DNA of 64,000 bases. Source: Paracoccus sp. MA (GTDB lineage Bacteria; Pseudomonadota; Alphaproteobacteria; Rhodobacterales; Rhodobacteraceae). The notes under the pieces were generated by a model that worked only from the letters and a program-made list of their open reading frames with translations, had not been told where the DNA came from and did not search any database. The position numbers and the translations under genes were made by a program. The stretch is from NCBI RefSeq assembly GCF_020990385.1, contig NZ_CP087597.1, forward strand, positions 519,001 through 583,000, written 5' to 3'. Each line of letters starts with the position of its first letter. The stretch's first letter is position 1. Shown here piece after piece: positions 20,750-63,147 of the stretch.

Positions 20750-22987
20750 TCAGTTCTGCGCCAGCAGATCGGTGATCCGGCGCACGGCGACACGGCGGTT
20801 CTGCCGCTCCGGCCCGTCGGTCGGGATCAGCAGGAACTGCTCGCCATAGCCCTGCACCACCATGTTTTCCGGCGGCACCTGGAAATATTCCGTCAGCGCC
20901 AGCGCCACCGATTCCGCGCGGCGGTCGGACAAGGCCAGATTGGCGGCATCCGAGCCGACGGCGTCGGTATAGCCCTCGATCATGTAGATCTCGCGCGGGT
21001 TCTGGTCGATGCTGTCGCGGATCACCTTGCCCAGCGTCGCGAGTTGCTGCGCCTGGTCCGGGGTGATGGCCGAGGAGCCGGTGTCGAAGGTGATCTCGGG
21101 CACGTTCACCGGGGCGACTAGGGCGCGCACCTCGGGGATGTCGCGGATCTGGCCCAGGCTGAAGCGCCGGTCGATCGCCGCCTCGCGCCGCAGGGCCTCG
21201 CGCAGCGCCGCCTCGTCCATGCGCTCGCGGTTGATGCGGACCGGCGGCGGCGCGGGCAGGGCCGAGATCTGCACCGGCTCCGCCGCGGTGTCGTCGATCA
21301 GCCGCGTCTCGCTGCCATCGGCGCGGACAAGCGTGCGGCGCAGGATGTTCATGTTCGCGTCGCGGATGGTGACGACGCGGCTGCCATCCGCGCGCAGCAC
21401 CGTGGTGCGGGTCGAGCCGTCCCCGAAGGTTTCCGTCCGCACGTTCGAGCCGGGCTGGTAGAGCAGGGCGTTGTCGTCCTTGATCACCTGCTGGCTGCCG
21501 TCGGGCAGGGTCACCACCACGCGGTCGCCAGTGTTCAGCGCCACCTGCCGGTCGTTGGACAGCATCTGGCCGACCGCAAAGCCCGCCGCCCCGGCCAGGA
21601 GCATCTTGGCGATGTCCTTCCCCTTGTCGTCATCGTCGCGGCGGACTTCCTCGGACCCGGCCTCGGCGGCGCGCTGCTGTTCCTGCAAAGCCTGGGCGAC
21701 CGAGGTGGCGAATTCCTCGGCCGAACTGCGCGCGTTGTCGTCGGTGATCTGCATTTCGTTCACTTCGCCCTCGCCCCCTTCGGCGCTGGCGGCCAGAGCG
21801 GCGGCCGCGGCGGCCGCGCCCTGCTCGGCGGCGCGCTGCGCCACGGCATTCGGCTGGACCTGCGCCTCGGGCGCCTGCACCTCGGCGGCTTCGCCGGACT
21901 GCGGCTCGGTCTGGCCGGCCTGCTCTTGCAAGCGGCGCTCGAGCTCCTGCTGATCGGGTTGCTGGCCGTCCTCGGCCTGCTGCTCGCCGGGCTGGGCTTC
22001 GCCCGGCTGGGGTTGGCCGGGCTGCGGCTCGGCCTGGCCGGCCTGTTCCTGCAAGCGGCGTTCCAACTCCTGCGCATCCGGCTGCTCGCCGTCCACCGCG
22101 CGCTGTGCATCGGGCTCAGACTCGCCAGACTGGGACTGACCGGATTCGGGCTGACCCTCGACCTGCTCCTGCAAGCGCTGCTCGAGCTCCTGCGCGTCCA
22201 GCGTTTGCGGACGCTCGGCGTCGGGCTGGCCTTCGCGGGCCTGTTGCTGCTGTTCCGCGCCGTTCTGGGGCTGGGCGGCGGGTTCCGCCTGCTGCGGGGA
22301 CGGTTGCTCGGTCTGCGGCTCGCCCGGCGCGGGTTCGCGTGCTTCCTGCAGCGCCTCGGCATCCAGGGACGGCTCGGATCCGGCCGGAGACGCCGCTTCC
22401 GGCGCGGGTGCGTCCTGCTGCGGCCGCTGCTCGGGCGAGGGATCGGCGCCGGTGACGGTTTCGGGCGTGTCGGGCTTGGCGGCGGGGGGCGAGGCCTGCT
22501 GCTGTTCGCCCGCGCCGGTCCCGGGTCTCGGGGCCGGCTCATCGGCTTCGACCACCGGCGGCTTGGGACGCGGCTCCTCGGCCTGCGTCACCTCGGGCTT
22601 GGCCGCCGGAGCGTCCGCGGCCGATGGTGCCTGCGGATCCTCGGGTGCGGCGTCAGCCCCGCTTTGCGGTTGCTCGGCCTGCTGTCCGGCCTGCGGCAGC
22701 CCGGCCGGGCCGTCCTGGGCCGGCGCATCGGGCTCGGCCGCGTTCCCGGCAGCCTCCGCTTGCGGCTCCTCGGGTTCTTCCTGCGCTTGTCCGGCCCCTG
22801 CCTCGCCGCTTTCCTCGGCACGGGGCTCCTGCGCCTGATCGTCGTCGGACTGGCCGGCCTGGTCCCTTGGCAGGATAAGCTGCCCACCCTCCTCCTGCGC
22901 CTGCTGGTCCTGCGCCGCCGCCAGCTGCGGGGCAATCAGGGACAGGCAGGTCACGATCGCAGTCGTCGTCTTGTAGATGCGCCGCAT
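20750..22987 (-). CDS. OmpA-family outer membrane/peptidoglycan-anchoring protein with long Pro/Gln/Glu-rich region
   Basis: 745 residues. A signal peptide (MRRIYKTTTAIVTCLSLIAP, cleavage after AAA-Q near 25) is followed by about 350 residues made almost only of Pro, Gln, Glu, Ala and Gly. These include three imperfect repeats built on ELERRLQEQAGQ (first version ELEQRLQEQVEGQ). A short hydrophobic helix AKMLLAGAAGFAVGQML lies near residue 470. Then comes a beta-rich part and, from about 625, a C-terminal OmpA domain (ITFDTGSSAITPDQ, EGYTDAVGSDAANLALSDRRA) that binds peptidoglycan. Related proteins are annotated as OmpA family in Rhodobacteraceae. A GAAGAGG ribosome site precedes the ATG. A stress-type promoter lies 37 bases upstream. 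Confidence 0.9.
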   Translation of the reverse strand: MRRIYKTTTAIVTCLSLIAPQLAAAQDQQAQEEGGQLILPRDQAGQSDDDQAQEPRAEESGEAGAGQAQEEPEEPQAEAAGNAAEPDAPAQDGPAGLPQAGQQAEQPQSGADAAPEDPQAPSAADAPAAKPEVTQAEEPRPKPPVVEADEPAPRPGTGAGEQQQASPPAAKPDTPETVTGADPSPEQRPQQDAPAPEAASPAGSEPSLDAEALQEAREPAPGEPQTEQPSPQQAEPAAQPQNGAEQQQQAREGQPDAERPQTLDAQELEQRLQEQVEGQPESGQSQSGESEPDAQRAVDGEQPDAQELERRLQEQAGQAEPQPGQPQPGEAQPGEQQAEDGQQPDQQELERRLQEQAGQTEPQSGEAAEVQAPEAQVQPNAVAQRAAEQGAAAAAAALAASAEGGEGEVNEMQITDDNARSSAEEFATSVAQALQEQQRAAEAGSEEVRRDDDDKGKDIAKMLLAGAAGFAVGQMLSNDRQVALNTGDRVVVTLPDGSQQVIKDDNALLYQPGSNVRTETFGDGSTRTTVLRADGSRVVTIRDANMNILRRTLVRADGSETRLIDDTAAEPVQISALPAPPPVRINRERMDEAALREALRREAAIDRRFSLGQIRDIPEVRALVAPVNVPEITFDTGSSAITPDQAQQLATLGKVIRDSIDQNPREIYMIEGYTDAVGSDAANLALSDRRAESVALALTEYFQVPPENMVVQGYGEQFLLIPTDGPERQNRRVAVRRITDLLAQN

Positions 22988-23023: not shown

Positions 23024-23048
23024 AACCTTCGGTGCGGGGCGCGGTTCC
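23024..23048 (-). promoter_or_regulatory. Candidate EcfG-type stress promoter of the OmpA-type gene
   Basis: On the minus strand GGAAC is followed after 16 bases by GGTT, ending 37 bases before the gene start. The alphaproteobacterial general-stress sigma factor EcfG uses GGAAC-N16/17-CGTT, so the -10 part has one mismatch. Confidence 0.45.
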
Positions 23049-32994: not shown

Positions 32995-33575
32995 TGTTCT
33001 CGCGCCGCCGTCCGCCGCGCCTGGAAACCGAGCGGATGGTGCTGCGCCTGCCGGCGCATGCGGATTTCGGGGCCTGGATGGCGCTGCGCATCGAAAGCCG
33101 CGCCTTCCTGACCCCGTGGGAGCCGGTCTGGGCGCCCGACCACCTGACCAAGCGCAGCTTCACCAACCGGGTCTATTGGGCGCAGCGCGCCAGCCGCAAC
33201 GGCACGGCGCTGCCCTTGTTCCTGATCCGGCGCGACGGCACGCTTTTGGGCGCGATCACGCTGGACAATATCCGCCGCGGCCCGGCGCAATCGGCGACCA
33301 TCGGCTATTGGATCGGCCAGCCCTTCGCCCGGCAGGGCTATATGCGCGAGGCCATCGGCGCGCTGGTGCAGCACGCCTTCACTGGGATGGACCTGAGCCG
33401 CATCGAGGCCGCCTGCCTGCCCGAGAACACCCCCTCGCGCGGGGTGCTGGAACGTTCCGGCTTCAAGTATGAAGGCGTGGCGCAAAGCTATCTGCAGATC
33501 AACGGCCGCTGGCGCAACCATGTGCTTTACGCCAACCTGCGCCACGACCGACGCGGCAAGACCGAGGTGCGCTGA
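32994..33575 (+). CDS. GNAT acetyltransferase, RimJ type
   Basis: 193 residues. The RimJ/RimL-type start is clear (LETERMVLRLPAHADFGAWMALR), as are the acetyl-CoA loop ATIGYWIGQPFARQGYMREAIGALV and the C-terminal NTPSRGVLERSGFKYEGVA. Members acetylate N-terminal Ala or Ser, for example of ribosomal protein S5. The substrate here cannot be read from sequence. The ATG overlaps the M16 stop (TGATG) and its own stop overlaps the next ATG, so it is in the middle of a tightly coupled operon. Confidence 0.88.
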   Translation: MFSRRRPPRLETERMVLRLPAHADFGAWMALRIESRAFLTPWEPVWAPDHLTKRSFTNRVYWAQRASRNGTALPLFLIRRDGTLLGAITLDNIRRGPAQSATIGYWIGQPFARQGYMREAIGALVQHAFTGMDLSRIEAACLPENTPSRGVLERSGFKYEGVAQSYLQINGRWRNHVLYANLRHDRRGKTEVR

Positions 33576-54741: not shown

Positions 54742-55109
54742 GCGCGGATGGCCGGATGACCGCGGCGGCAACGTCGAGGAAAGTCCGGACTCCATGAAGG
54801 CACGGTGCCGGGTAACGCCCGGCGGGGGCAACCCCAGGGAAAGCGCCACAGAGAAGAGACCGCCCATGCGTGCATGGGCAAGGGTGAAACGGTGGGGTAA
54901 GAGCCCACCGCGGGGCTGGCAACAGTCCCGGCACGGCAAGCCCCACCGGGAGCAATGCCGAATAGGGACCGCGCGTCGCAAGACAGGGCCGCCTTCGCCC
55001 CAGCAGGTCCGGGTTGGCAGCTAGATCCCGTCAGCAATGGCGGGGCCAGAGGAATGGTCATCGAAGGGGGCGACCCCGGAACAAAATCCGGCTTACAGGC
55101 CATCCGCGC
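54742..55109 (+). ncRNA. rnpB: RNase P RNA
   Basis: Bacterial type A RNase P RNA of about 368 bases, the catalytic part of the enzyme that matures tRNA 5' ends. Universally conserved pieces are visible in order: GAGGAAAGTCCGGACTCC, ACAGAGAAGAGACCGCC, GGGGTAAGAGCCCACCG, AGAGGAATGGTCATC and ATCCGGCTTACAGG. The ends pair perfectly: GCGCGGATGGCC at 54742-54753 with GGCCATCCGCGC at 55098-55109 (helix P1), which sets the boundaries. Confidence 0.97.
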
Positions 55110-55244
55110 AATTTCCTTCCTGAAATGTTATCCGCAAGGCAAGGCGCAGCCAGAACCCGGCCCTGTCCGGCGAGCAGGTCTGTCGCCCGGCCCTCGGGCA
55201 GGGGCCTCGATCTCGTCCCGAACCACGACCGAGGGCGGGGAAGC

Positions 55245-55690
55245 CAAGATGCGGGGCTCACGCCTCGGCCAGCCTCGTCGCGATGGCAGCCGACGATCCG
55301 CATGCAGATGGGCAATCCGCCCGCCATGCCGCAGGGCAGGCTGATCGCCGGATGCCCGGTTGAAGGGCAGGGTCCGCACCGGTGTCCAGGCCGCGCCATC
55401 GGCAAAACCGGTAAGGCCGGCGCGGTCTGCAGCGTCGTCGCGGTGACCAGCGCGTCGCGGCCGGCCAGCGCCTCGTCCATCTGCTGGCCAAGGCGCAGCG
55501 CCAGCGCGCGCGCCGTTGCCGGGTCGGCCTCGTCCAGCACCGCCCCGGTGATCAGGCCGCGCCGGACGTCGCGACCGTAATCGCCGCCGCGCGTCCGCAG
55601 CCGGCAACTCCACCAGCTCGACCGTCATGCCCGGCAGCGAAAGCTGTGAGACCGCGCCGCCGTCGGGCCGGCCCTCGGCGGGAACATTGC
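55245..55690 (-). pseudogene. Remnant of an amidase gene
   Basis: Minus-strand translation gives pieces of the C-terminal half of an amidase-signature protein, split over two frames. First comes LSLPGMTVELVELPAAD, then after a frame change GDYGRDVRRGLITGAVLDEA, MDEALAGRDALVTATT, and TGHPAISLPCGMAGGLPICM followed by RIVG. The Ser-Ser-Lys catalytic half is missing altogether, and after RIVG the similarity stops. It is a decayed, non-functional copy between rnpB and the ku operon. The rest of 55110-55745 shows only a stress-type promoter. Confidence 0.7.
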
Positions 55691-55706
55691 GGCCCGTCCG
55701 GGGGTT
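55681..55706 (+). promoter_or_regulatory. Candidate EcfG-type stress promoter of the small-protein/ku1 operon
   Basis: GGAAC at 55681-55685 is followed after 17 bases by GGTT at 55703-55706, 40 bases before the ATG. The EcfG consensus is GGAAC-N16/17-CGTT; one mismatch. Confidence 0.5.
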
Positions 55707-55745
55707 GAGCCGGCATCACGATTCCAGATGCAGGAGGAAAGCCTC

Positions 55746-56024
55746 ATGGCCCATGCAAGCCGCAAGAAATTCGGGGCAGGGCAGCAGGATCAGGGCAAGG
55801 GCGACGCCTCGGGCGGCATGACCCCGGACACGGCCGAGGGCCTGCCCGAGAACGAGGTCCTGTCGAACCGCGACACCGCGCGGCATTCCCAGCAGCGCGG
55901 ACTGGACAGCCGGCATGTGCAGAACCAGCAGCACCACGACCATGTCGGCAATCGCGAGGGCGCGGAGGAGGACGACCTGCCCGACCGGCGCCCGGATGAC
56001 GAGCCGATACGCGACGAACCCTGA
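55746..56024 (+). CDS. Small acidic, probably disordered protein preceding ku1
   Basis: 92 residues, not recognised. It is highly hydrophilic, with a short basic start (MAHASRKKFGAG), many Gln, His, Asp and Glu, and an acidic tail (EGAEEDDLPDRRPDDEP). No signal peptide, membrane segment or cysteine is present. Such composition suggests an intrinsically disordered stress protein. AGGAGG lies eight bases before the ATG at 55746. Its stop overlaps the ku1 start by one base (TGATG), so the two are co-translated; a role with Ku or in stress survival is inference. Confidence 0.75.
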   Translation: MAHASRKKFGAGQQDQGKGDASGGMTPDTAEGLPENEVLSNRDTARHSQQRGLDSRHVQNQQHHDHVGNREGAEEDDLPDRRPDDEPIRDEP

Positions 56025-56830
56025 TGGCGCCGCGTTCGTTCTGGAAAGGCTATCTGAAGCTGTCGCTGGTCACCTGTCCGGTCTCGATGATGCCGGCCAC
56101 CGGCGAGGGCGAGAAGGTTCGCTTCCACACCCTGAATGCGAAAACCGGCAATCGCGTCCTCAGCCGCTATGTCGATGCCGAAACCGGCAAGCCCGTGGCC
56201 GAGGAGGACGAGGTCAAGGGCTATCCCCGGGGCGAGGACGAGCATGTGCTGCTGGAGGATGACGAGATCGAGGCGGTGGCGCTGGAAAGCACCCGGACCA
56301 TCGATATCGACATGTTCGTGCCCTCGGATTCCATCGGCTGGATCTGGTATGACAAGCCGCATTACCTGATCCCCGACGATCCCATCGGCGAAGAGGCCTA
56401 TTGCGTGATCCGCGACGCCATGGGCTCGACCGGGACGGTGGGCATCTCGCGGCTGGTGCTTTATCGCCGCGAACGCGCGGTGATGCTGGAGCCGCGCGAC
56501 AAGGGCATCGTGCTCTGGACCCTGCGCTATGGCGACGAGGTGCGGCCCGACGCCGATTATTTCGACCAGATCGGCGAGGGGAAGGTCGATGCCGGGCTGC
56601 TGAAGCTGGTCACCCGGCTGATCGACGAGCGCAGCGCGCCCTGGGACCCGGCCATGGTCGCCGACCCGGTGCAGGACAAGCTTCTGGAGATCATCGCCGC
56701 CAAGACCAAAGGGCGCAAGCGGGCGGCGAAACCGAAGGCCGAGAAGCCCGCCGCGCCGGGCAATGTCATCAACATCATGGATGCGCTGAAGAAAAGCATC
56801 GCCTCGGAAAGCAAGGGCCGGCGGCGCTAG
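56024..56830 (+). CDS. ku1: Non-homologous end-joining protein Ku (first copy)
   Basis: 268 residues, bacterial Ku. The start SFWKGYLKLSLVTCPV is the family signature, followed by KVRFHTLNAKTGNRVLSRYVD, the EVKGYPRGEDEHVLLED region and the conserved MVADPVQDKLLEII. The Lys/Ala-rich tail (GRKRAAKPKAEKPAA) probably contacts DNA or LigD. Ku forms a ring on broken DNA ends and recruits LigD. It is co-translated with the small protein upstream. Its stop shares CTAG with that of the convergent ligD gene. Confidence 0.95.
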   Translation: MAPRSFWKGYLKLSLVTCPVSMMPATGEGEKVRFHTLNAKTGNRVLSRYVDAETGKPVAEEDEVKGYPRGEDEHVLLEDDEIEAVALESTRTIDIDMFVPSDSIGWIWYDKPHYLIPDDPIGEEAYCVIRDAMGSTGTVGISRLVLYRRERAVMLEPRDKGIVLWTLRYGDEVRPDADYFDQIGEGKVDAGLLKLVTRLIDERSAPWDPAMVADPVQDKLLEIIAAKTKGRKRAAKPKAEKPAAPGNVINIMDALKKSIASESKGRRR

Positions 56831-59388
56831 CCGGCCTTCCTGCGCCGGGTGCGCGGCGCTTCCAGCGGTGCGGCGGCGGCGCGGAAGCCCTCCCACGGAT
56901 CCGAGGCGAGCGTAGCCAGCCGCGTCGGCATGTTCTGCAGGGTGAACCAGGCCGGGCCGATGCCGGCGTCAAGCTCGTCCCAGCGCAGCGGCGCCGAGAC
57001 GGCGGCGCCGGGCCGGGCGCGGGTGGAATAGGCGGCGACGGCGGTGGCGCCGCGCTGGTTGCGCAGATAGTCGATCAGGATCTTGCCGCGCCGCTTGGCC
57101 TTGCTGATGGTCGAGACGTAGCGGTCCGGATCGTCGGCGGCCATGGCATCGGCCAGCGCCTTGGTGAAGGTCTTGACCGCCGGCCATTCCGCCCGCGGCC
57201 GCAGGGGCGCGACGACATGCAGCCCCTTGCCGCCCGAGGTCTTGACGAAAGCGGCGAGGCCGTGGTCCTCCAGCCGCTGGCGCAGTTCGCGCGCGGCCGC
57301 GACCACGGCGGGCCATTCCACCGCCTCGCCCGGATCGAGGTCCATGGTGATCATGTCGGGGCGCTCCCAATCGGCGATGGTCGCGCCCCAGGGGTGGATC
57401 TCCAGCGCCGCGGATTGCACCAGCCCCATCAGCCCGTCCAGGTCCTCGATCGCGATCAGCGGCTCGCCGGCGGGGTCCTTCGGATCCTGCACCTGGACGA
57501 TATGCGGGCTGAGTCCCTTCCAGGCGTGTTTCTGAAAGAATTTCTCGCCCGCGATGCCGTTCGGGCAGCGCAGCAGCGCCAGCGGCCGGCCGGTGATCCA
57601 GGGCGCGATATGGCGCCAGATCTCGGCGTAATAGTCGGCGAGCCCTTCTTTCGTGACGCCTTCCTCGGGCCAGTAAAGCCGGTCCGGGTGGGTCAGCCGC
57701 ACCCGGCGGCGCTGCGGGGCAGCGGGCTTCGCGGCGGGCCTGGCGGTCTCGCGCACGATCTCGGTCGCGGGCTTGTCCTCGCGCAGGCCGCGGAACGAGG
57801 CGTGGCGCAGATGGCCGTCGGCGGTCCAGGCGCGGAACTCGACCTCGGCCACCAGCTCGGGGCGGACATAGCGGGCCTGCCGCGCCTCCTCCGCCGTCAG
57901 GCGGGCGGCGAAGGGGCTTTTGGGGATGCGCATCCGGTCCAGCCGGCGGAACAGATCCTCGGCCACGGCGCCGGAAAACCCGGTGCCGACCCGGCCGACA
58001 TGCTGCAATTCGCCATTCTCGTAAACGCCAAGGATCAGCGAGCCGATGGCCCTGCGCGATACCGACGAGGGCACGTAGCCTGCCACGACGAATTCCTGCC
58101 GGGCCGAGCATTTCGATTTGACCCAGGACCGGCCGCGCCCGGCGCGATAGGGGCTGTCGCGCAGCTTCGACACGATCCCCTCCAGGCTCAGCCGGCAGGC
58201 ATGGCGCAGGACCAGCGCGCCGCTTTCCTCGAAATGGCTGCTCAGGCGCAGGACGCCGGCGGCCTCGCCCAGAAGCCGCGCCAGCAGCGCCTTGCGCTCG
58301 ACCAGGGGCACGGCGCGCAGGTCGTAGCCGTCCAGATGCAGCAGGTCGAAGGCGTAGAACACGAAGCGGTCGGCGCGGCCGGCGCTCAGATCGGCCTGAA
58401 GCGCCGAGAAATCCGAGGCGCCGGCATCGGTCTCGACCACCAGCTCGCCGTCGAGGATGGCGGCGCCGGCGGGCAGGTCGCGCAGCGCCGCCGGCACGGC
58501 CTTGCCGAAGCGCGCGGTCCAGTCCAGCCCGCTGCGGGTCAGAAGCTTGACCCGCCCGGCCTCGATGTGGGCCAGCAGGCGGTAGCCGTCGAACTTGATC
58601 TCGTGCAGCCAGCGTTCGCCCTGCGGCGCGGCCGAGACCAGCGTGGCCAGCATCGGCTCGATAAAGCCCGGCATCGGCGCCTTGCGCGCACCCTTGACCG
58701 CCGCGGGCTCGGGCGGCTCCGGGGCGGGCTGCGGGTCGGGCTGCGGGTCGGGGTCTGCGGCGGGCTTTTTCGCCCGGCCGGCCGATTTGCGGATGCGGCC
58801 GGTCTTCGAGGACCAGCCCGGCGCCTCGCCCGCGACATCCGCGATCACCCGGCCGGTCTTGACCGATTCCGGTCGCTGGTCGAGGATGTCCGGCGCGTCC
58901 TCGCCGCGCGCGAAATCGTCCTCGCCCTTGATGAGCAGCCAGTTCTCGCGCTTCTCGCGCGGCTTGCCGCGCATGCGGACCAGATGCCAGCGCCCGCCCA
59001 GCTTTTCGCCCTGCAGCGTGAACTCCAGATGGCCTTTGGCATAGCCCTGATGCGGATCGCCCTCGGGCGTCCAGGTGCCGCGATCCCACAGGATGACGGT
59101 GCCGCCGCCATATTCGCCCTTGGGGATGGTGCCTTCGAAATCGCCGTATTCCAGCGGATGGTCCTCGACATGCACCGCCAGGCGCTTTTCGCCGGGCACC
59201 AGGCTGGGGCCCTTGGCGACGGCCCAGCTTTTCAGCACGCCGTCCAGCTCCAGCCGGAAGTCGTAATGCAGCCGGGTCGCGGCATGTTTCTGGATGACGA
59301 AGGCGTTGCCGGCCTTGCGCCGCCGCCCGCCGCGCGGCTCGGGCGTCGCCGAGAAATCCCGCTTCTTGCGATAGGTCTCCAGCGCCAT
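56827..59388 (-). CDS. ligD: ATP-dependent DNA ligase LigD with phosphoesterase, ligase and polymerase domains
   Basis: 853 residues, the complete three-domain enzyme of bacterial end joining. Order: 3'-phosphoesterase (about 30-155; FVIQKHAATRLHYDFRLELD, HVEDHPLEYGDFEG); a Pro/Asp-rich linker (PADPDPQPDPQPAPEPPEP, about 209-228); ATP-dependent ligase (about 240-540, with the adenylated Lys265 in EIKFDGYR and LEGIVSKLRDSPYRAGRG); and a primase-type polymerase (about 570-835, with MITMDLDPG and KTSGGKGLHVV). This phosphoesterase-ligase-polymerase order is the one usual outside mycobacteria. It fills, trims and seals ends held by Ku. Confidence 0.97.
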   Translation of the reverse strand: MALETYRKKRDFSATPEPRGGRRRKAGNAFVIQKHAATRLHYDFRLELDGVLKSWAVAKGPSLVPGEKRLAVHVEDHPLEYGDFEGTIPKGEYGGGTVILWDRGTWTPEGDPHQGYAKGHLEFTLQGEKLGGRWHLVRMRGKPREKRENWLLIKGEDDFARGEDAPDILDQRPESVKTGRVIADVAGEAPGWSSKTGRIRKSAGRAKKPAADPDPQPDPQPAPEPPEPAAVKGARKAPMPGFIEPMLATLVSAAPQGERWLHEIKFDGYRLLAHIEAGRVKLLTRSGLDWTARFGKAVPAALRDLPAGAAILDGELVVETDAGASDFSALQADLSAGRADRFVFYAFDLLHLDGYDLRAVPLVERKALLARLLGEAAGVLRLSSHFEESGALVLRHACRLSLEGIVSKLRDSPYRAGRGRSWVKSKCSARQEFVVAGYVPSSVSRRAIGSLILGVYENGELQHVGRVGTGFSGAVAEDLFRRLDRMRIPKSPFAARLTAEEARQARYVRPELVAEVEFRAWTADGHLRHASFRGLREDKPATEIVRETARPAAKPAAPQRRRVRLTHPDRLYWPEEGVTKEGLADYYAEIWRHIAPWITGRPLALLRCPNGIAGEKFFQKHAWKGLSPHIVQVQDPKDPAGEPLIAIEDLDGLMGLVQSAALEIHPWGATIADWERPDMITMDLDPGEAVEWPAVVAAARELRQRLEDHGLAAFVKTSGGKGLHVVAPLRPRAEWPAVKTFTKALADAMAADDPDRYVSTISKAKRRGKILIDYLRNQRGATAVAAYSTRARPGAAVSAPLRWDELDAGIGPAWFTLQNMPTRLATLASDPWEGFRAAAAPLEAPRTRRRKAG

Positions 59389-59536
59389 GGCCTAACCGCC
59401 GACGCTTTCGGGCGCGGGTCCTGCGCGCCGGCGATCCGCAAGGGCCGGTCGGTCGGCATGGCCGGCAACGGGCGATGTCATCCTGGCTCTCCCTTTCCAG
59501 TCCCGGGCGCTTGGCGGGAACCGCGACATTCCTTCC

Positions 59537-59562
59537 AACCGTTCCCGCGGGCCGTTTGTTCC
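59537..59562 (-). promoter_or_regulatory. Candidate EcfG-type stress promoter of ligD
   Basis: On the minus strand GGAAC (59562-59558) is followed after 17 bases by GGTT (59540-59537), about 150 bases before the ligD ATG. A second GGAAC lies within the spacer. Confidence 0.4.
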
Positions 59563-59591
59563 CCGGGCAAGGGGCAGGGAGGGGCCGCCGC

Positions 59592-60200
59592 TCATCCCGC
59601 CAGCCGCCAGGCGCGGCGCAGATCGGCAAGGAACAGTTGCCTTTCCGTTTCGCGCGCCGCGGAATCGCGGATGCGCAGCAGCCATGAGGGATGGATCGTC
59701 GCGATCATCGGGATGCCGTCCTCGATGCGGCCGGTCTTGCCGCGCAGCGACGAGATCGACACCGGACGGCCCAGCAGGCTGCGAAGCGCCGTCGCCCCCA
59801 TGGCCACCAGAACGGCGGGGGCGACCAGCTTCAGCTCCTGCCCCAGCCACCATTTGCAGCGGTCGATCTCGCCGGCATTCGGGCTGCGGTGCAGACGCCG
59901 CTTGCCGCGCGGCTCGAACTTGAAATGCTTGACGGCATTGGTCACGAAGATCTGGTCGCGCGGGATGCCCGCCTCGGCCAGGGTCTGGTCGAAGAGGCGG
60001 CCCGCCGGGCCGACGAAGGGGCGGCCGGCCAGATCCTCCTTGTCGCCCGGCTGCTCGCCCACGACCATCATGCGCGCCTGCCGGTGGCCCTCGCCCGGCA
60101 CGACCTGCGTCGCGTCGCGATAAAGCGGGCAGCGCGTGCAGTTCGCCTCGGCCTCGGCCAGCGCGCCGAGGGTCGCGGCCTCGACTTCCGCCTCGGACAT
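59592..60200 (-). CDS. UdgX-type uracil-DNA glycosylase
   Basis: 202 residues of the family 4-related uracil-DNA glycosylases. The features of UdgX are present: GEQPGDKEDLAGRPFVGPAG (48-67), TNAVKHFKFEPRGKRR (87-102) with KRRLH at 100-104, and the C-terminal IATIHPSWLLR motif. In mycobacterial UdgX the His of KRRIH binds covalently to the deoxyribose after uracil removal; here it would be His104. Only three cysteines occur (21, 24, 115), so a fourth ligand for an Fe-S cluster would have to be another residue. The ATG at 60200 fits the family start. Confidence 0.88.
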   Translation of the reverse strand: MSEAEVEAATLGALAEAEANCTRCPLYRDATQVVPGEGHRQARMMVVGEQPGDKEDLAGRPFVGPAGRLFDQTLAEAGIPRDQIFVTNAVKHFKFEPRGKRRLHRSPNAGEIDRCKWWLGQELKLVAPAVLVAMGATALRSLLGRPVSISSLRGKTGRIEDGIPMIATIHPSWLLRIRDSAARETERQLFLADLRRAWRLAG

Positions 60201-60261
60201 CGGGTCTCCTCCTTGCCGCCCGGCATCGGGCCGCTTTGGCCGCCTCGGGCTCTGGCTGCTC

Positions 60262-60286
60262 AACGGATGCCGGGGCGGGATGTTCC
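60262..60286 (-). promoter_or_regulatory. EcfG-type stress promoter of udgX
   Basis: On the minus strand GGAAC (60286-60282) is followed after 16 bases by CGTT (60265-60262), an exact match to the general-stress consensus, 61 bases before the start codon. Confidence 0.65.
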
Positions 60287-60313
60287 CGCCGCCCGGGCCC
60301 TGCGGCTCTCGCG

Positions 60314-60338
60314 GGAACAAACCGGCGCCCCGGCGGTT
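60314..60338 (+). promoter_or_regulatory. Candidate EcfG-type stress promoter of the SRPBCC-dehydrogenase operon
   Basis: GGAAC at 60314-60318 is followed after 16 bases by GGTT at 60335-60338, 63 bases before the ATG. With the udgX promoter it forms a divergent pair whose GGAAC boxes lie in a TGTTCCCGC/GCGGGAACA inverted repeat. Confidence 0.45.
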
Positions 60339-60401
60339 CCCATCGCCGTCCCGAAGCCGGCGGCCCATTGCCGTGAAGGAGGGGCCGCGAAGGAGGAAAG
60401 G

Positions 60402-61031
60402 ATGCCCGGACAGGACAGGAATGCGCGCCACAGGGACCTCGCCGTGCTGGCCTGCGCGGCGGCGTTGTCGCTGGGTGCGGGGATGCTGCTGTGGAGGCGG
60501 TCGACGGGCGGGCACCGTTCGGACGACGCGCCGGGCCGCGCGGCGCGGCGGCTGGATTTCGGCGGCTATCAGGTGGTCGGGCGGACCGTCACGATTGCCG
60601 CGCCCCGCAGCGCCGTCCATGCGCCATGGCGCGATCCCGCGCAGCTGAACCGGATTTTCGGCGGCGGGCTGAAGGTCCGGCCGCTGTCGGAGGACCGGAT
60701 GGCGTGGATCCTCGCCACCCCCTCGGGCGAGATCGAGGTCGAGACGCGGCTGGTCGAGGAACGCGCGGGCGAAATCCTGGCCTGGCGGTCCGTGGACGGC
60801 TCCGGGATCGACGTCGAGGCCAAGCTCCAGCTTCGCGACGCCCCGGCCGGCCGGGGCACCGAGGTCGAGGCGCATATCGCCTGGCGGCCGCCTTGGGGCC
60901 TGCCCGGGCACTGGGCGGCCCGGCTGGGCGGCACCGATCCCGGACGGCTTTGCCGGCAGGCGCTGAAGCGCCTGAAGATGCTGCTGGAAACCGGCGAAAT
61001 CGCCACGGCGGACAATCGGAGGGATTCGTGA
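60402..61031 (+). CDS. Membrane-anchored SRPBCC (START-like) protein
   Basis: 209 residues. A short N-terminal tail and one membrane helix (LAVLACAAALSLGAGMLLW) are followed by a START/SRPBCC fold (about 55-195) of the cyclase/dehydrase type: GGYQVVGRTVTIAAPRSAVH, then strand-rich sequence and a C-terminal helix (RLCRQALKRLKMLLETGE). Such proteins bind lipids or other hydrophobic ligands. Pairing with a zinc alcohol dehydrogenase is common in proteobacteria, often in stress-induced loci. AAGGAGG precedes the ATG. The stop overlaps the dehydrogenase start by one base. Confidence 0.82.
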   Translation: MPGQDRNARHRDLAVLACAAALSLGAGMLLWRRSTGGHRSDDAPGRAARRLDFGGYQVVGRTVTIAAPRSAVHAPWRDPAQLNRIFGGGLKVRPLSEDRMAWILATPSGEIEVETRLVEERAGEILAWRSVDGSGIDVEAKLQLRDAPAGRGTEVEAHIAWRPPWGLPGHWAARLGGTDPGRLCRQALKRLKMLLETGEIATADNRRDS

Positions 61032-62203
61032 TGCGCGCCTTGACCTGGCAGGGAAAACACGACGTGCGGGTGGATACCGTCCCCGATCCCCGGATCGTCA
61101 ATCCGCGCGACGCGATCATCGAGGTGACCGCGACGGCGATCTGCGGCTCGGACCTGCATCTCTATGACGGGGTGATCCCGGGCCTGCGGCCGGGCGACGT
61201 GCTCGGCCATGAATTCATGGGCCGGGTGGTCGAGACCGGGCCCGGCTCGACGCTGAAGCCGGGCCAGCGGGTGGTGGTGCCCTTCACCATCTCTTGCGGC
61301 AGCTGCTTCTTCTGCGCGCAGGGCCAGTTCTCGGCCTGCGACAATTCCAACCCGGTCGAGGCGCAGGAGGCGTCGGAATTGCTCTATGGCCATGCGATGA
61401 GCGGGCTTTTCGGCTATTCGCACCTGACCGGCGGCTATCCGGGCGGGCAGGCGGAATATGTGCGGGTGCCGTTTTCCGATGTCGGTCCCATCGTGGTGCC
61501 GGACGGGGTCCCGGACGAGCAGGTGCTGTTCCTGTCCGATATCCTGCCGACCGGCTGGATGGCGGCCGAGAACGCGCAGATCCAGCCGGGCGACAGCGTG
61601 GCGGTCTGGGGCTGCGGCCCGGTGGGCCTGTTCACCGTCCAGTCGGCGCTGCTGATGGGGGCAGAGCAGGTCATCGCGATCGACCATCATCCCAACCGGC
61701 TGCGGCTGGCGCGTGATCTGGGCGCCAGGGTGATCGACTATCGCCACAGCCATGTGCTGGAGGCGCTGCTGGAGATGACCGGCGGCATCGGCCCGGATGC
61801 GGTGATCGACGCCGTCGGCATGGAGAGCCACGGCTTTGCGCCGGACAACCTGCTGGACACCGCCAAGCAGAAGGTGGGCATCGGCGTGGACCGGGCGCAT
61901 GTGCTGCGCATGGCGCTGCTCGCGGTGCGCAAGGGCGGCCGGGTGTCGGTGCCGGGCGTCTATGGGGGCTTTGCCGACAAGTTCCCGCTGGGGGCGCTGA
62001 TGGAGAAGGGCCTGCAGATCCGCGCCGGCCAGACGCATGTGCAGAAATACGGGCAGGATCTGCTGCAACGCATCCTCGAAGGGCAGATCGACACCACCTT
62101 CCTGATCTCGCATCGCCTGTCGCTGGAGGACGCCGCCACGGGCTACAGGAACTTCCGCGACAATCAGGACGAATGGACCAAGGTGGTGCTGAAACCCCGC
62201 TGA
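61031..62203 (+). CDS. Zinc-dependent alcohol dehydrogenase
   Basis: 390 residues, medium-chain dehydrogenase of the glutathione-independent formaldehyde-dehydrogenase-like group. The catalytic zinc site has Cys38 (CGSDLH), His60 and Glu61 (GHEFMG). The structural zinc site has Cys89, Cys92, Cys95 and Cys103. The NAD-binding motif VWGCGPVGLFTVQSALLMGA is at about 194-213. The substrate cannot be read from sequence. It overlaps the SRPBCC gene (TGATG), so the two are one unit, probably stress-induced. Confidence 0.9.
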   Translation: MRALTWQGKHDVRVDTVPDPRIVNPRDAIIEVTATAICGSDLHLYDGVIPGLRPGDVLGHEFMGRVVETGPGSTLKPGQRVVVPFTISCGSCFFCAQGQFSACDNSNPVEAQEASELLYGHAMSGLFGYSHLTGGYPGGQAEYVRVPFSDVGPIVVPDGVPDEQVLFLSDILPTGWMAAENAQIQPGDSVAVWGCGPVGLFTVQSALLMGAEQVIAIDHHPNRLRLARDLGARVIDYRHSHVLEALLEMTGGIGPDAVIDAVGMESHGFAPDNLLDTAKQKVGIGVDRAHVLRMALLAVRKGGRVSVPGVYGGFADKFPLGALMEKGLQIRAGQTHVQKYGQDLLQRILEGQIDTTFLISHRLSLEDAATGYRNFRDNQDEWTKVVLKPR

Positions 62204-62254
62204 GGCCGGCGCGGGCGGTTCTGCGCCTGGCCGCCCGCCTCGCGGAGGCCCGGC

Positions 62255-63085
62255 TTAGCCGCTTTTGCGCTGGCGCGCGGCGGGCTTCTTCCGCGCCGCC
62301 GGCTTTTTCGCGCCCCGCCCGGCGCTTTCGCGCAGCGCCGCCATCAGGTCCACGACCTTTTCGCGCGGCGCCGGTTTCCTGGGCGCGATCCGGCGCCCCT
62401 CCAGCTTGGCCCGGACCAGATCGGCCAGCGCCGCCTCGTAGCGGTCCTCGAAACCGGCGATGTCGAATTCGCCCATCTTGGTGGCGATGATATGCTCGGC
62501 CAGGTCCAGCATCTCGCCCTTGATCTTCACGGCCGAGACATCGCGGAAGGCTTCTGCGGCCGAGCGCACCTCATAGTCGAAATTCAGCGTCGTCGCGATC
62601 ATGCCGGGGCCATGGGCGCGGATCAGCACCGTGCGCACGCGCCGGAACAGCACCGCCCGCGCCAGCGCCGCCACCTTCTTGCGGCGCATGCCTTCGCGGA
62701 TCAGGGCGAAGGCCTCCTCGGCGGGCCGGTCGGCCGGGGTCAGGTAATAGGGCCGGTCGAAATAGACGTCGTCGATGTCGCCGCAGGCGACGAAGCTGGC
62801 CACGGCCAGCGTCTTGTCGCTTTCCGGGACGGCGGCGGCGATCTCCTCGGGATCCAGGACGACGTAATCGCCCTCGCCGACCTCGTAGCCCTTGACCTGA
62901 TCGTCCTTCTCGACCGGCTTTCCGGTGGTGCCGTCCACGAACTGCCGCCGCACCCGGTGGCCGGTGGCGCGGTTCAGCGTGTGAAAGGCGATGCGCTCCG
63001 AGGTCGAGGCGGCGGCATGCAACGCCACCGGGCAGCTCAGCTCGGCGATCTTCAGCAGTCCTTTCCAGATCGCCCTGGGGGCCAT
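62255..63085 (-). CDS. ku2: Non-homologous end-joining protein Ku (second copy)
   Basis: 276 residues, clearly Ku (MAPRAIWKGLLKIAELSCPV, RIAFHTLNRATGHRVRRQFVD, DQVKGYEVGEGDYVVLDPEEI, GEMLDLAEHIIATKMG) but well diverged from the copy at 56024. Its C-terminal tail is long and very basic (GRGAKKPAARKKPAARQRK), a form known to bind DNA directly and to let Ku thread inwards. Alphaproteobacteria such as Sinorhizobium carry several Ku genes with distinct partners. It is convergent with the dehydrogenase gene and has its own stress-type promoter 37 bases upstream. Confidence 0.95.
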   Translation of the reverse strand: MAPRAIWKGLLKIAELSCPVALHAAASTSERIAFHTLNRATGHRVRRQFVDGTTGKPVEKDDQVKGYEVGEGDYVVLDPEEIAAAVPESDKTLAVASFVACGDIDDVYFDRPYYLTPADRPAEEAFALIREGMRRKKVAALARAVLFRRVRTVLIRAHGPGMIATTLNFDYEVRSAAEAFRDVSAVKIKGEMLDLAEHIIATKMGEFDIAGFEDRYEAALADLVRAKLEGRRIAPRKPAPREKVVDLMAALRESAGRGAKKPAARKKPAARQRKSG

Positions 63086-63121
63086 GGCGCGCGTCCTTCG
63101 TGGAAATCCGCAACGATGACC

Positions 63122-63147
63122 AACGCCCCGGGTGAAACGGGGGTTCC
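63122..63147 (-). promoter_or_regulatory. EcfG-type stress promoter of ku2
   Basis: On the minus strand GGAAC (63147-63143) is followed after 17 bases by CGTT (63125-63122), an exact match to the alphaproteobacterial general-stress consensus, 37 bases before the ku2 ATG. Confidence 0.65.

Follow-up and report, generated by a model that had tools for sequence, protein, structure and literature searches.

Putative EcfG-type promoters precede all five units of an end-joining island in Paracoccus sp. MA

Several alphaproteobacteria are described as placing genes for nonhomologous end joining (NHEJ) under the control of an EcfG-type sigma factor. In Sinorhizobium meliloti, RpoE2 induces both NHEJ sets, Ku2-LigD2 and Ku3/Ku4-LigD4, according to PMC12844678, and the primary paper, entitled "Stress-inducible NHEJ in bacteria," is cited in PMC10932983. 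The EcfG regulon reported for Sphingopyxis granuli includes ku-ligD (PMC7083833), that of Sphingomonas melonis includes a Ku gene (PMC6599016), and the consensus GGAAC-N16-17-C/GGTT has been applied to a Rubellimicrobium (PMC12148442). Here, we analyze an NHEJ island of Paracoccus sp. MA that lies in a stretch of 64,000 nucleotides (nt), hereafter the window, corresponding to C1:519001-583000; the genome comprises 4.47 Mb in three contigs. The island comprises, in this order, a small protein-ku1 operon (+), ligD (-), udgX (-), an SRPBCC-dehydrogenase operon (+), and ku2 (-), and each of these units is preceded by a box of the GGAAC-N16/17-(C/G)GTT type. The island thus resembles the S. meliloti system in having Ku and LigD genes under a putative EcfG-type sigma factor, although here the regulation is a prediction, and it resembles the S. 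granuli and S. melonis regulons in having ku-ligD or Ku genes with the same promoter type; it differs from the S. meliloti sets in that each unit, including udgX and the dehydrogenase operon, has its own box. We consider it probable that RNA polymerase with an EcfG-type sigma factor uses the five boxes as promoters and that stress induces the island units together. For ku and ligD, control by EcfG has been published in relatives; what is added here is UdgX, the dehydrogenase pair, and the promoter of a split operon.

All five boxes were found as described in the original prediction, being exact, intergenic, and oriented toward their genes. The box of the ku1 operon (55681..55706, +, GGAAC-N17-GGTT) lies 42 nt before the conserved start of the small protein at 55749, that of ligD (59537..59562, -, GGAAC-N17-GGTT) lies 148 nt before the start, those of udgX (60262..60286, -, GGAAC-N16-CGTT) and of the SRPBCC-dehydrogenase operon (60314..60338, +, GGAAC-N16-GGTT) lie 61 and 63 nt before theirs, respectively, and the ku2 box (63122..63147, -, GGAAC-N17-CGTT) ends 36 nt before the start codon. 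Correctly oriented matches are therefore present upstream of 5/5 island units. Both strands of the window together hold seven matches, five of them within the upstream stretches of the island. Dinucleotide shuffles of the window gave an expectation of 1.26 (CGTT) plus 0.84 (GGTT) matches for spacings N15 to N18, so about 1 at N16/17; one or two chance matches per 64 kb had been estimated beforehand. Together, the upstream stretches of the five units span 887 oriented bases, for which 0.016 matches are expected at the out-of-island rate; at that rate, and assuming independence, the probability that all five contain a match is about 3e-13.

The window was also scored with a weight matrix derived from relatives (157 distinct sites, none from the window's own loci); since these training sites were preselected by GGAAC and GTT, the matrix adds only weights around that core. 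Among all window positions on both strands, the five boxes rank 1, 2, 4, 5, and 6, and rank 3 is held by 33198-33222 (-), which is antisense within a gene. The lowest score of the five, 15.7 bits, belongs to the ku2 box, and an average of 0.5 equally good positions occurred per first-order Markov window (20 windows). A second match outside the island, GGAAC-N16-GGTT at 23024-23048 (-), is intergenic, stands 36 nt before an OmpA-family gene (20750-22987, -), and is possibly a further EcfG-type promoter.

Conservation at the promoter spacing was assessed in 80 named LigD loci, 78 of which had a ku2 and 74 a ku1 passing a filter of at least 55% identity, a match start within eight residues, and an upstream stretch present. 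An N16/17 box occurs within 120 nt of ku2 in 60/78 relatives and within 120 nt of ku1 in 46/74, compared with 0 to 3 and 0 to 8, respectively, for other spacing pairs; within 350 nt, the counts are 63/78 and 52/74. The box is likewise present at the ku2 of Paracoccus versutus, and at the pSymB ku of S. meliloti, GGAAC-N17-GGTT stands 35 nt ahead of the matched start, which, together with the statements in PMC12844678 and PMC10932983, indirectly bears out the earlier remark that some Sinorhizobium ku/ligD genes depend on RpoE2. Among 13 plasmid records, taken from 60 listed of 695 with a match, four betaproteobacterial and six actinobacterial ku genes had an N16/17 box within 350 nt in 0/10 cases, a control that is loose because these ten genes encode distant Ku proteins. 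When the regions upstream of seven ku2 genes and four small-protein genes were aligned within Paracoccus, both boxes proved to be kept and the spacer changed. The seven ku2 genes, our own included, carry GGAAC-N16/17-CGTT amid otherwise divergent DNA, and the small-protein box recurs at the corresponding position in G122, G090, and G121, where GGAACATTGC and GGTTGAG are retained and the spacer differs. Kept boxes flanking a drifting spacer fit recognition by a sigma factor better than a repressor site. Palindromes in the spacers were considered as a repressor site; by eye, the spacers diverge while both boxes stay.

The position of ligD offers a small natural experiment. ku2 stands directly before ligD in 77/80 named loci, and among 117 LigD loci examined in all, some genomes being counted twice, the 106 with the ku2-ligD order show a box within 250 nt of ligD in 0/106 cases. 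In the Paracoccus genomes where ligD is split from ku2 (our own, G105, G011, G122, and G048), a ligD box is present within 250 nt in 5/5. These five genomes, partly with several copies, make up the 11 non-operon loci together with one Phyllobacterium and one locus that has just 82 nt of upstream sequence and is not judgeable. The comparison of split and unsplit arrangements suggests that the putative promoter is kept under selection. Arrangements differ among the split-ligD genomes, and on a tree of 19 LigD proteins no fewer than two switches between the operon and split states are needed; the region from box to ligD looks related, by eye, in at least four of the five, which favors few split events, and the five genomes perhaps represent one or two events rather than five. 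Between box and gene, the sequence can be read as containing a 29-residue open reading frame (ORF) (59392..59481, -) that ends just before the ligD start and is possibly a leader ORF of ligD. By eye, the other split-ligD genomes show an ATG preceded by a purine-rich stretch in a comparable position. The distance from the ligD box to this putative ORF is 55 nt and resembles those in the other units. An overlapping N18 match (59519-59545) was rejected as the ligD promoter because split-ligD relatives have N16/17.

The udgX box is consistently present among close orthologs and sporadic among more distant ones. Close full-length UdgX orthologs, with 82 to 87% identity, occur in 4/124 other genomes of the genus, a further partial match of 78% being present in G058, and GGAAC-N16-GGTT precedes 4/4 of these genes, our own udgX with CGTT being counted apart. 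In a wider set of 385 genomes of the class, 34 had a match and 30 loci, L113 included, were examined; 18/30 were excluded as longer proteins whose frame continues upstream. Among the 12 distant stand-alone udgX genes left, an N16 box was found in 4, with one match at N11 and none at the other spacings from 8 to 25. Two loci of more distant alphaproteobacteria, L279 with udgX near ligD and L113 with udgX near ku-ligD, each have an N16 box. The SRPBCC-dehydrogenase operon was compared across 27 loci (25 genomes, that of the window among them), and an N16 box lies within 1300 nt upstream in 25/27 and within 450 nt in 15/27, other spacings reaching at most 3/27. In G121, the divergent udgX/SRPBCC-dehydrogenase pair lies on a contig other than that of ligD, with a box on each side, suggesting that the pair brought its promoters along when it joined the island. 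Fixed-spacing conservation of the putative promoters was found for ku2, ku1, the SRPBCC operon, close udgX, and split ligD, and it was not general for distant udgX.

The genome contains the NepR-EcfG-PhyR locus that goes with an EcfG regulon. NepR was recognized at 53.1 bits by a search that was positive in 1/14 control genomes (Caulobacter), ecfG adjoins nepR, a divergent gene encodes PhyR, which combines sigma-like and receiver domains, and the genome also encodes a HisKA_2/HWE kinase. The nepR-ecfG unit has its own GGAAC-N17-GGTT at C2:151683-151708. When wrong spacings (N18-25) are taken as background, the whole genome holds 78 GGTT matches at N16/17 versus 44 expected and 64 CGTT matches versus 37 expected, an excess of roughly 30 for each. 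Context is needed to judge single matches, since background accounts for over half of those found genome-wide. The view that CGTT is the better class did not hold, as GGTT and CGTT are about equally enriched genome-wide and the GGTT sites of the window score about as well or better. A control with the reversed pattern (GGTT 78 versus 31, CGTT 64 versus 67), by which only GGTT would be enriched, was dropped because the reversed pattern differs in composition; wrong spacings show both enriched. Counts from 61 genomes of the genus, which had this reversed control alone, were left out of the analysis. The proposal of a single stress regulon stood at the level of the sequence, the regulator being encoded with the same promoter type and the spacing being conserved, and held less well for UdgX, where it extends only to the close Paracoccus orthologs and some distant ones.

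Boxes extend a further 10 kb beyond the window, where the boxed genes include PRC-barrel genes, a DUF892 gene, a short-chain dehydrogenase operon, an isochorismatase-family gene, and a second, EcfG-like extracytoplasmic function (ECF) sigma gene, ecf2 (L033 6440-6913, about 5.4 kb past the window end). A PRC-barrel gene also belongs to the S. melonis EcfG regulon (PMC6599016), and here such genes lie beside the island. The ecf2 product has PhyR_sigma2 and sigma domains, is 40% identical to the main EcfG, and scores 153.7 bits with its best NCBIfam match, under the cut-off of 307; an adjoining 84-residue ORF is NepR-like by eye. Both are contained, with the DUF892 gene and a repeat-rich protein, in a 4540-bp segment that occurs twice at 99.98% identity, on C1 (L033 4933-9471) and on C3 (L064 12227-16766), and three EcfG-like sigma genes, two of them identical, have to be considered in the genome. 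More than one EcfG-type sigma gene is reported for Methylobacterium extorquens (PMC4814048) and Rhizobium etli (PMC3892343), whereas here the extra sigma gene lies beside a repair island and is doubled in the 4540-bp segment on another contig. Since ecf2 is present in two identical copies, a single ecfG knockout would not be decisive. A fourth ECF match, at C2:873754, is followed by a gene that resembles, by eye, an ordinary zinc-type anti-sigma factor. Similar stretches dense in boxes are found in P. versutus and G090, and both contain relatives (61 to 63%) of a 251-residue protein (L033 9452-10207, -) that has, at its C-terminus, a weak partial match, under the Pfam cut-off, to the PhyR sigma domain.

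The presence of ecf2 raises the possibility, which we regard as unlikely, that the boxes are read mainly by this island-borne sigma factor and not by the main EcfG, the island then being a partly separate regulon. The gene lies about 6 kb from ku2, beside the NepR-like ORF and in a box-rich stretch, and ecf2 relatives lie near ku2-ligD-ku1 at some other loci, among them L137, L140, and L146, but many relatives have conserved boxes and no ecf2 match at the ku-ligD loci retrieved, a close ecf2 match was found in just 11/295 sampled family genomes, our own included, and the 84-residue ORF has no Pfam match; with 40% identity between them, the two sigma factors may moreover read the same promoter. 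Slightly less probable in our opinion is that only some of the five boxes are active, the CGTT boxes of ku2 or udgX, for instance, being remnants and expression being ensured by read-through or a housekeeping promoter. That ku2 has the lowest-scoring box by the matrix, that PRC-yetF genes lie just upstream of ku2 on the same strand, and that the four close udgX orthologs have GGTT in place of the window's CGTT would all suit this explanation, which nevertheless has to contend with the retention of the CGTT box at ku2 throughout the seven Paracoccus genomes and with CGTT being the commonest -10 both among the matrix training sites (103/157) and in S. granuli (PMC7083833, section 10). Chance, meaning that GGAAC and GTT boxes are common in such DNA and that the ones near genes were picked out, could draw on the roughly one match expected per 64 kb and on the large share of genome-wide matches at the wrong-spacing level; we judge it very improbable for the set, given that all five upstream stretches have a box and that conservation in relatives is spacing specific, but a single site among the five could be due to chance.

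Several observations weigh against a general EcfG control of these units. No box lies within 120 nt in 18/78 ku2 and 28/74 ku1 relatives, several Shinella included, the Agrobacterium fabrum ku has no box within 350 nt, and the ligD of Phyllobacterium L105, which is without ku2, carries none. The named loci are moreover unevenly distributed over genera, with many Mesorhizobium, Rhizobium, and Shinella, and the relatives are not independent samples. Distant udgX genes have the box in just 4/12 cases, ten of the 25 boxes counted for SRPBCC operons are farther than 450 nt from the operon and may belong to a preceding gene instead, and ku2 could be transcribed by read-through from the upstream PRC-yetF genes.

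With EcfG as the sigma factor reading the boxes, which remains the explanation we favor, regulation would proceed by steps taken from other alphaproteobacteria. In unstressed cells, EcfG would be held by NepR; under stress, the sensing HisKA_2/HWE kinase would phosphorylate PhyR, which would then remove NepR, and the freed EcfG would direct transcription of all five island units at once. Ku and LigD would thereby join DNA ends in stressed, nongrowing, or desiccating cells, UdgX may trap or remove uracil in the same stressed state, and the dehydrogenase pair may handle a stress metabolite. A bolder extension, which we put forward only as speculation, is that the island belongs to a self-contained stress-repair module with its own EcfG-like sigma factor and NepR-like partner, spreading between replicons as the doubled segment, in which UdgX, covalent at uracil sites, would be coupled to Ku-LigD in nongrowing cells, and in which strong selection in the clade for common stress control would have given ligD its own EcfG promoter when a rearrangement removed it from the ku2 operon.

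The gene identities on which this proposal relies are as follows. The small hydrophilic protein (91 residues, 55749..56024, +) is encoded by the first gene of the ku1 operon, its stop overlapping the ku1 start; it had no match in Pfam or NCBIfam searches, and its orthologs beside ku1 in G122, G090, and G121 are 77 to 95% identical over about 70 residues. Ku1 (268 residues, 56024..56830, +) scores 139.6 bits with Pfam Ku and 286 bits with TIGR02772 (cut-off 150), and Ku2 (276 residues, 62255..63085, -) scores 274 bits with the latter model. DNA ligase D (853 residues, 56827..59388, -) has phosphoesterase, ligase, and polymerase domains and passes the curated cut-offs of TIGR02776 and of the three domain models TIGR02777, TIGR02778, and TIGR02779; Ku and a three-domain LigD, the components of bacterial NHEJ, are thus both present. 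Among the 80 named loci, the closest relatives of this LigD are those of Paracoccus thiocyanatus and P. aminovorans. Upstream of the putative ku1 promoter, the window contains a class A RNase P RNA (54744-55111, +; Rfam, 290 bits) and, between the two, a frame (55128-55628, -) that resembles, by eye, part of a broken amidase gene.

UdgX (202 residues, 59592..60200, -) scores 291 bits with TIGR03914 (cut-off 190). Its motifs, as read from the sequence, are GEQPG with the Gln of motif A, KRRLH with the His of the R-loop, and HPSWLLR for motif B, the last being one residue off HPS(S/A), and they point to a UdgX-type uracil-DNA binding protein. As described in PMC10359453, the type UdgX, a uracil-DNA cross-linking protein, shares motif A GEQPG and has KRRIH where KRRLH is found here, so that the two differ by one R-loop and one motif B residue. 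The SRPBCC-fold protein (209 residues, 60402..61031, +) has an N-terminal hydrophobic segment and matches Pfam Polyketide_cyc2 at 27.4 bits, exactly at the cut-off. Its partner, a zinc-dependent alcohol-dehydrogenase-family protein (390 residues, 61031..62203, +) with Pfam ADH_N and ADH_zinc_N domains, scores under the cut-off of all 21 NCBIfam models matched.

Our literature search returned no paper joining UdgX, uracil, and LigD, and the best 6 of 230 papers matching UdgX with general stress included none on UdgX, which is no proof of absence; the word uracil is absent from the main text of the S. melonis paper (PMC6599016), and the match to a search combining EcfG, PhyR, Paracoccus, and promoter concerns Methylorubrum. 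Our results would extend stress-controlled end joining to Paracoccus and, through the conserved promoters, to many alphaproteobacteria, and they propose UdgX and the SRPBCC-dehydrogenase pair as two candidate new members of the regulon. If this proposal is true, bacteria of this group under general stress would show more error-prone repair and acquire more foreign DNA by end joining.

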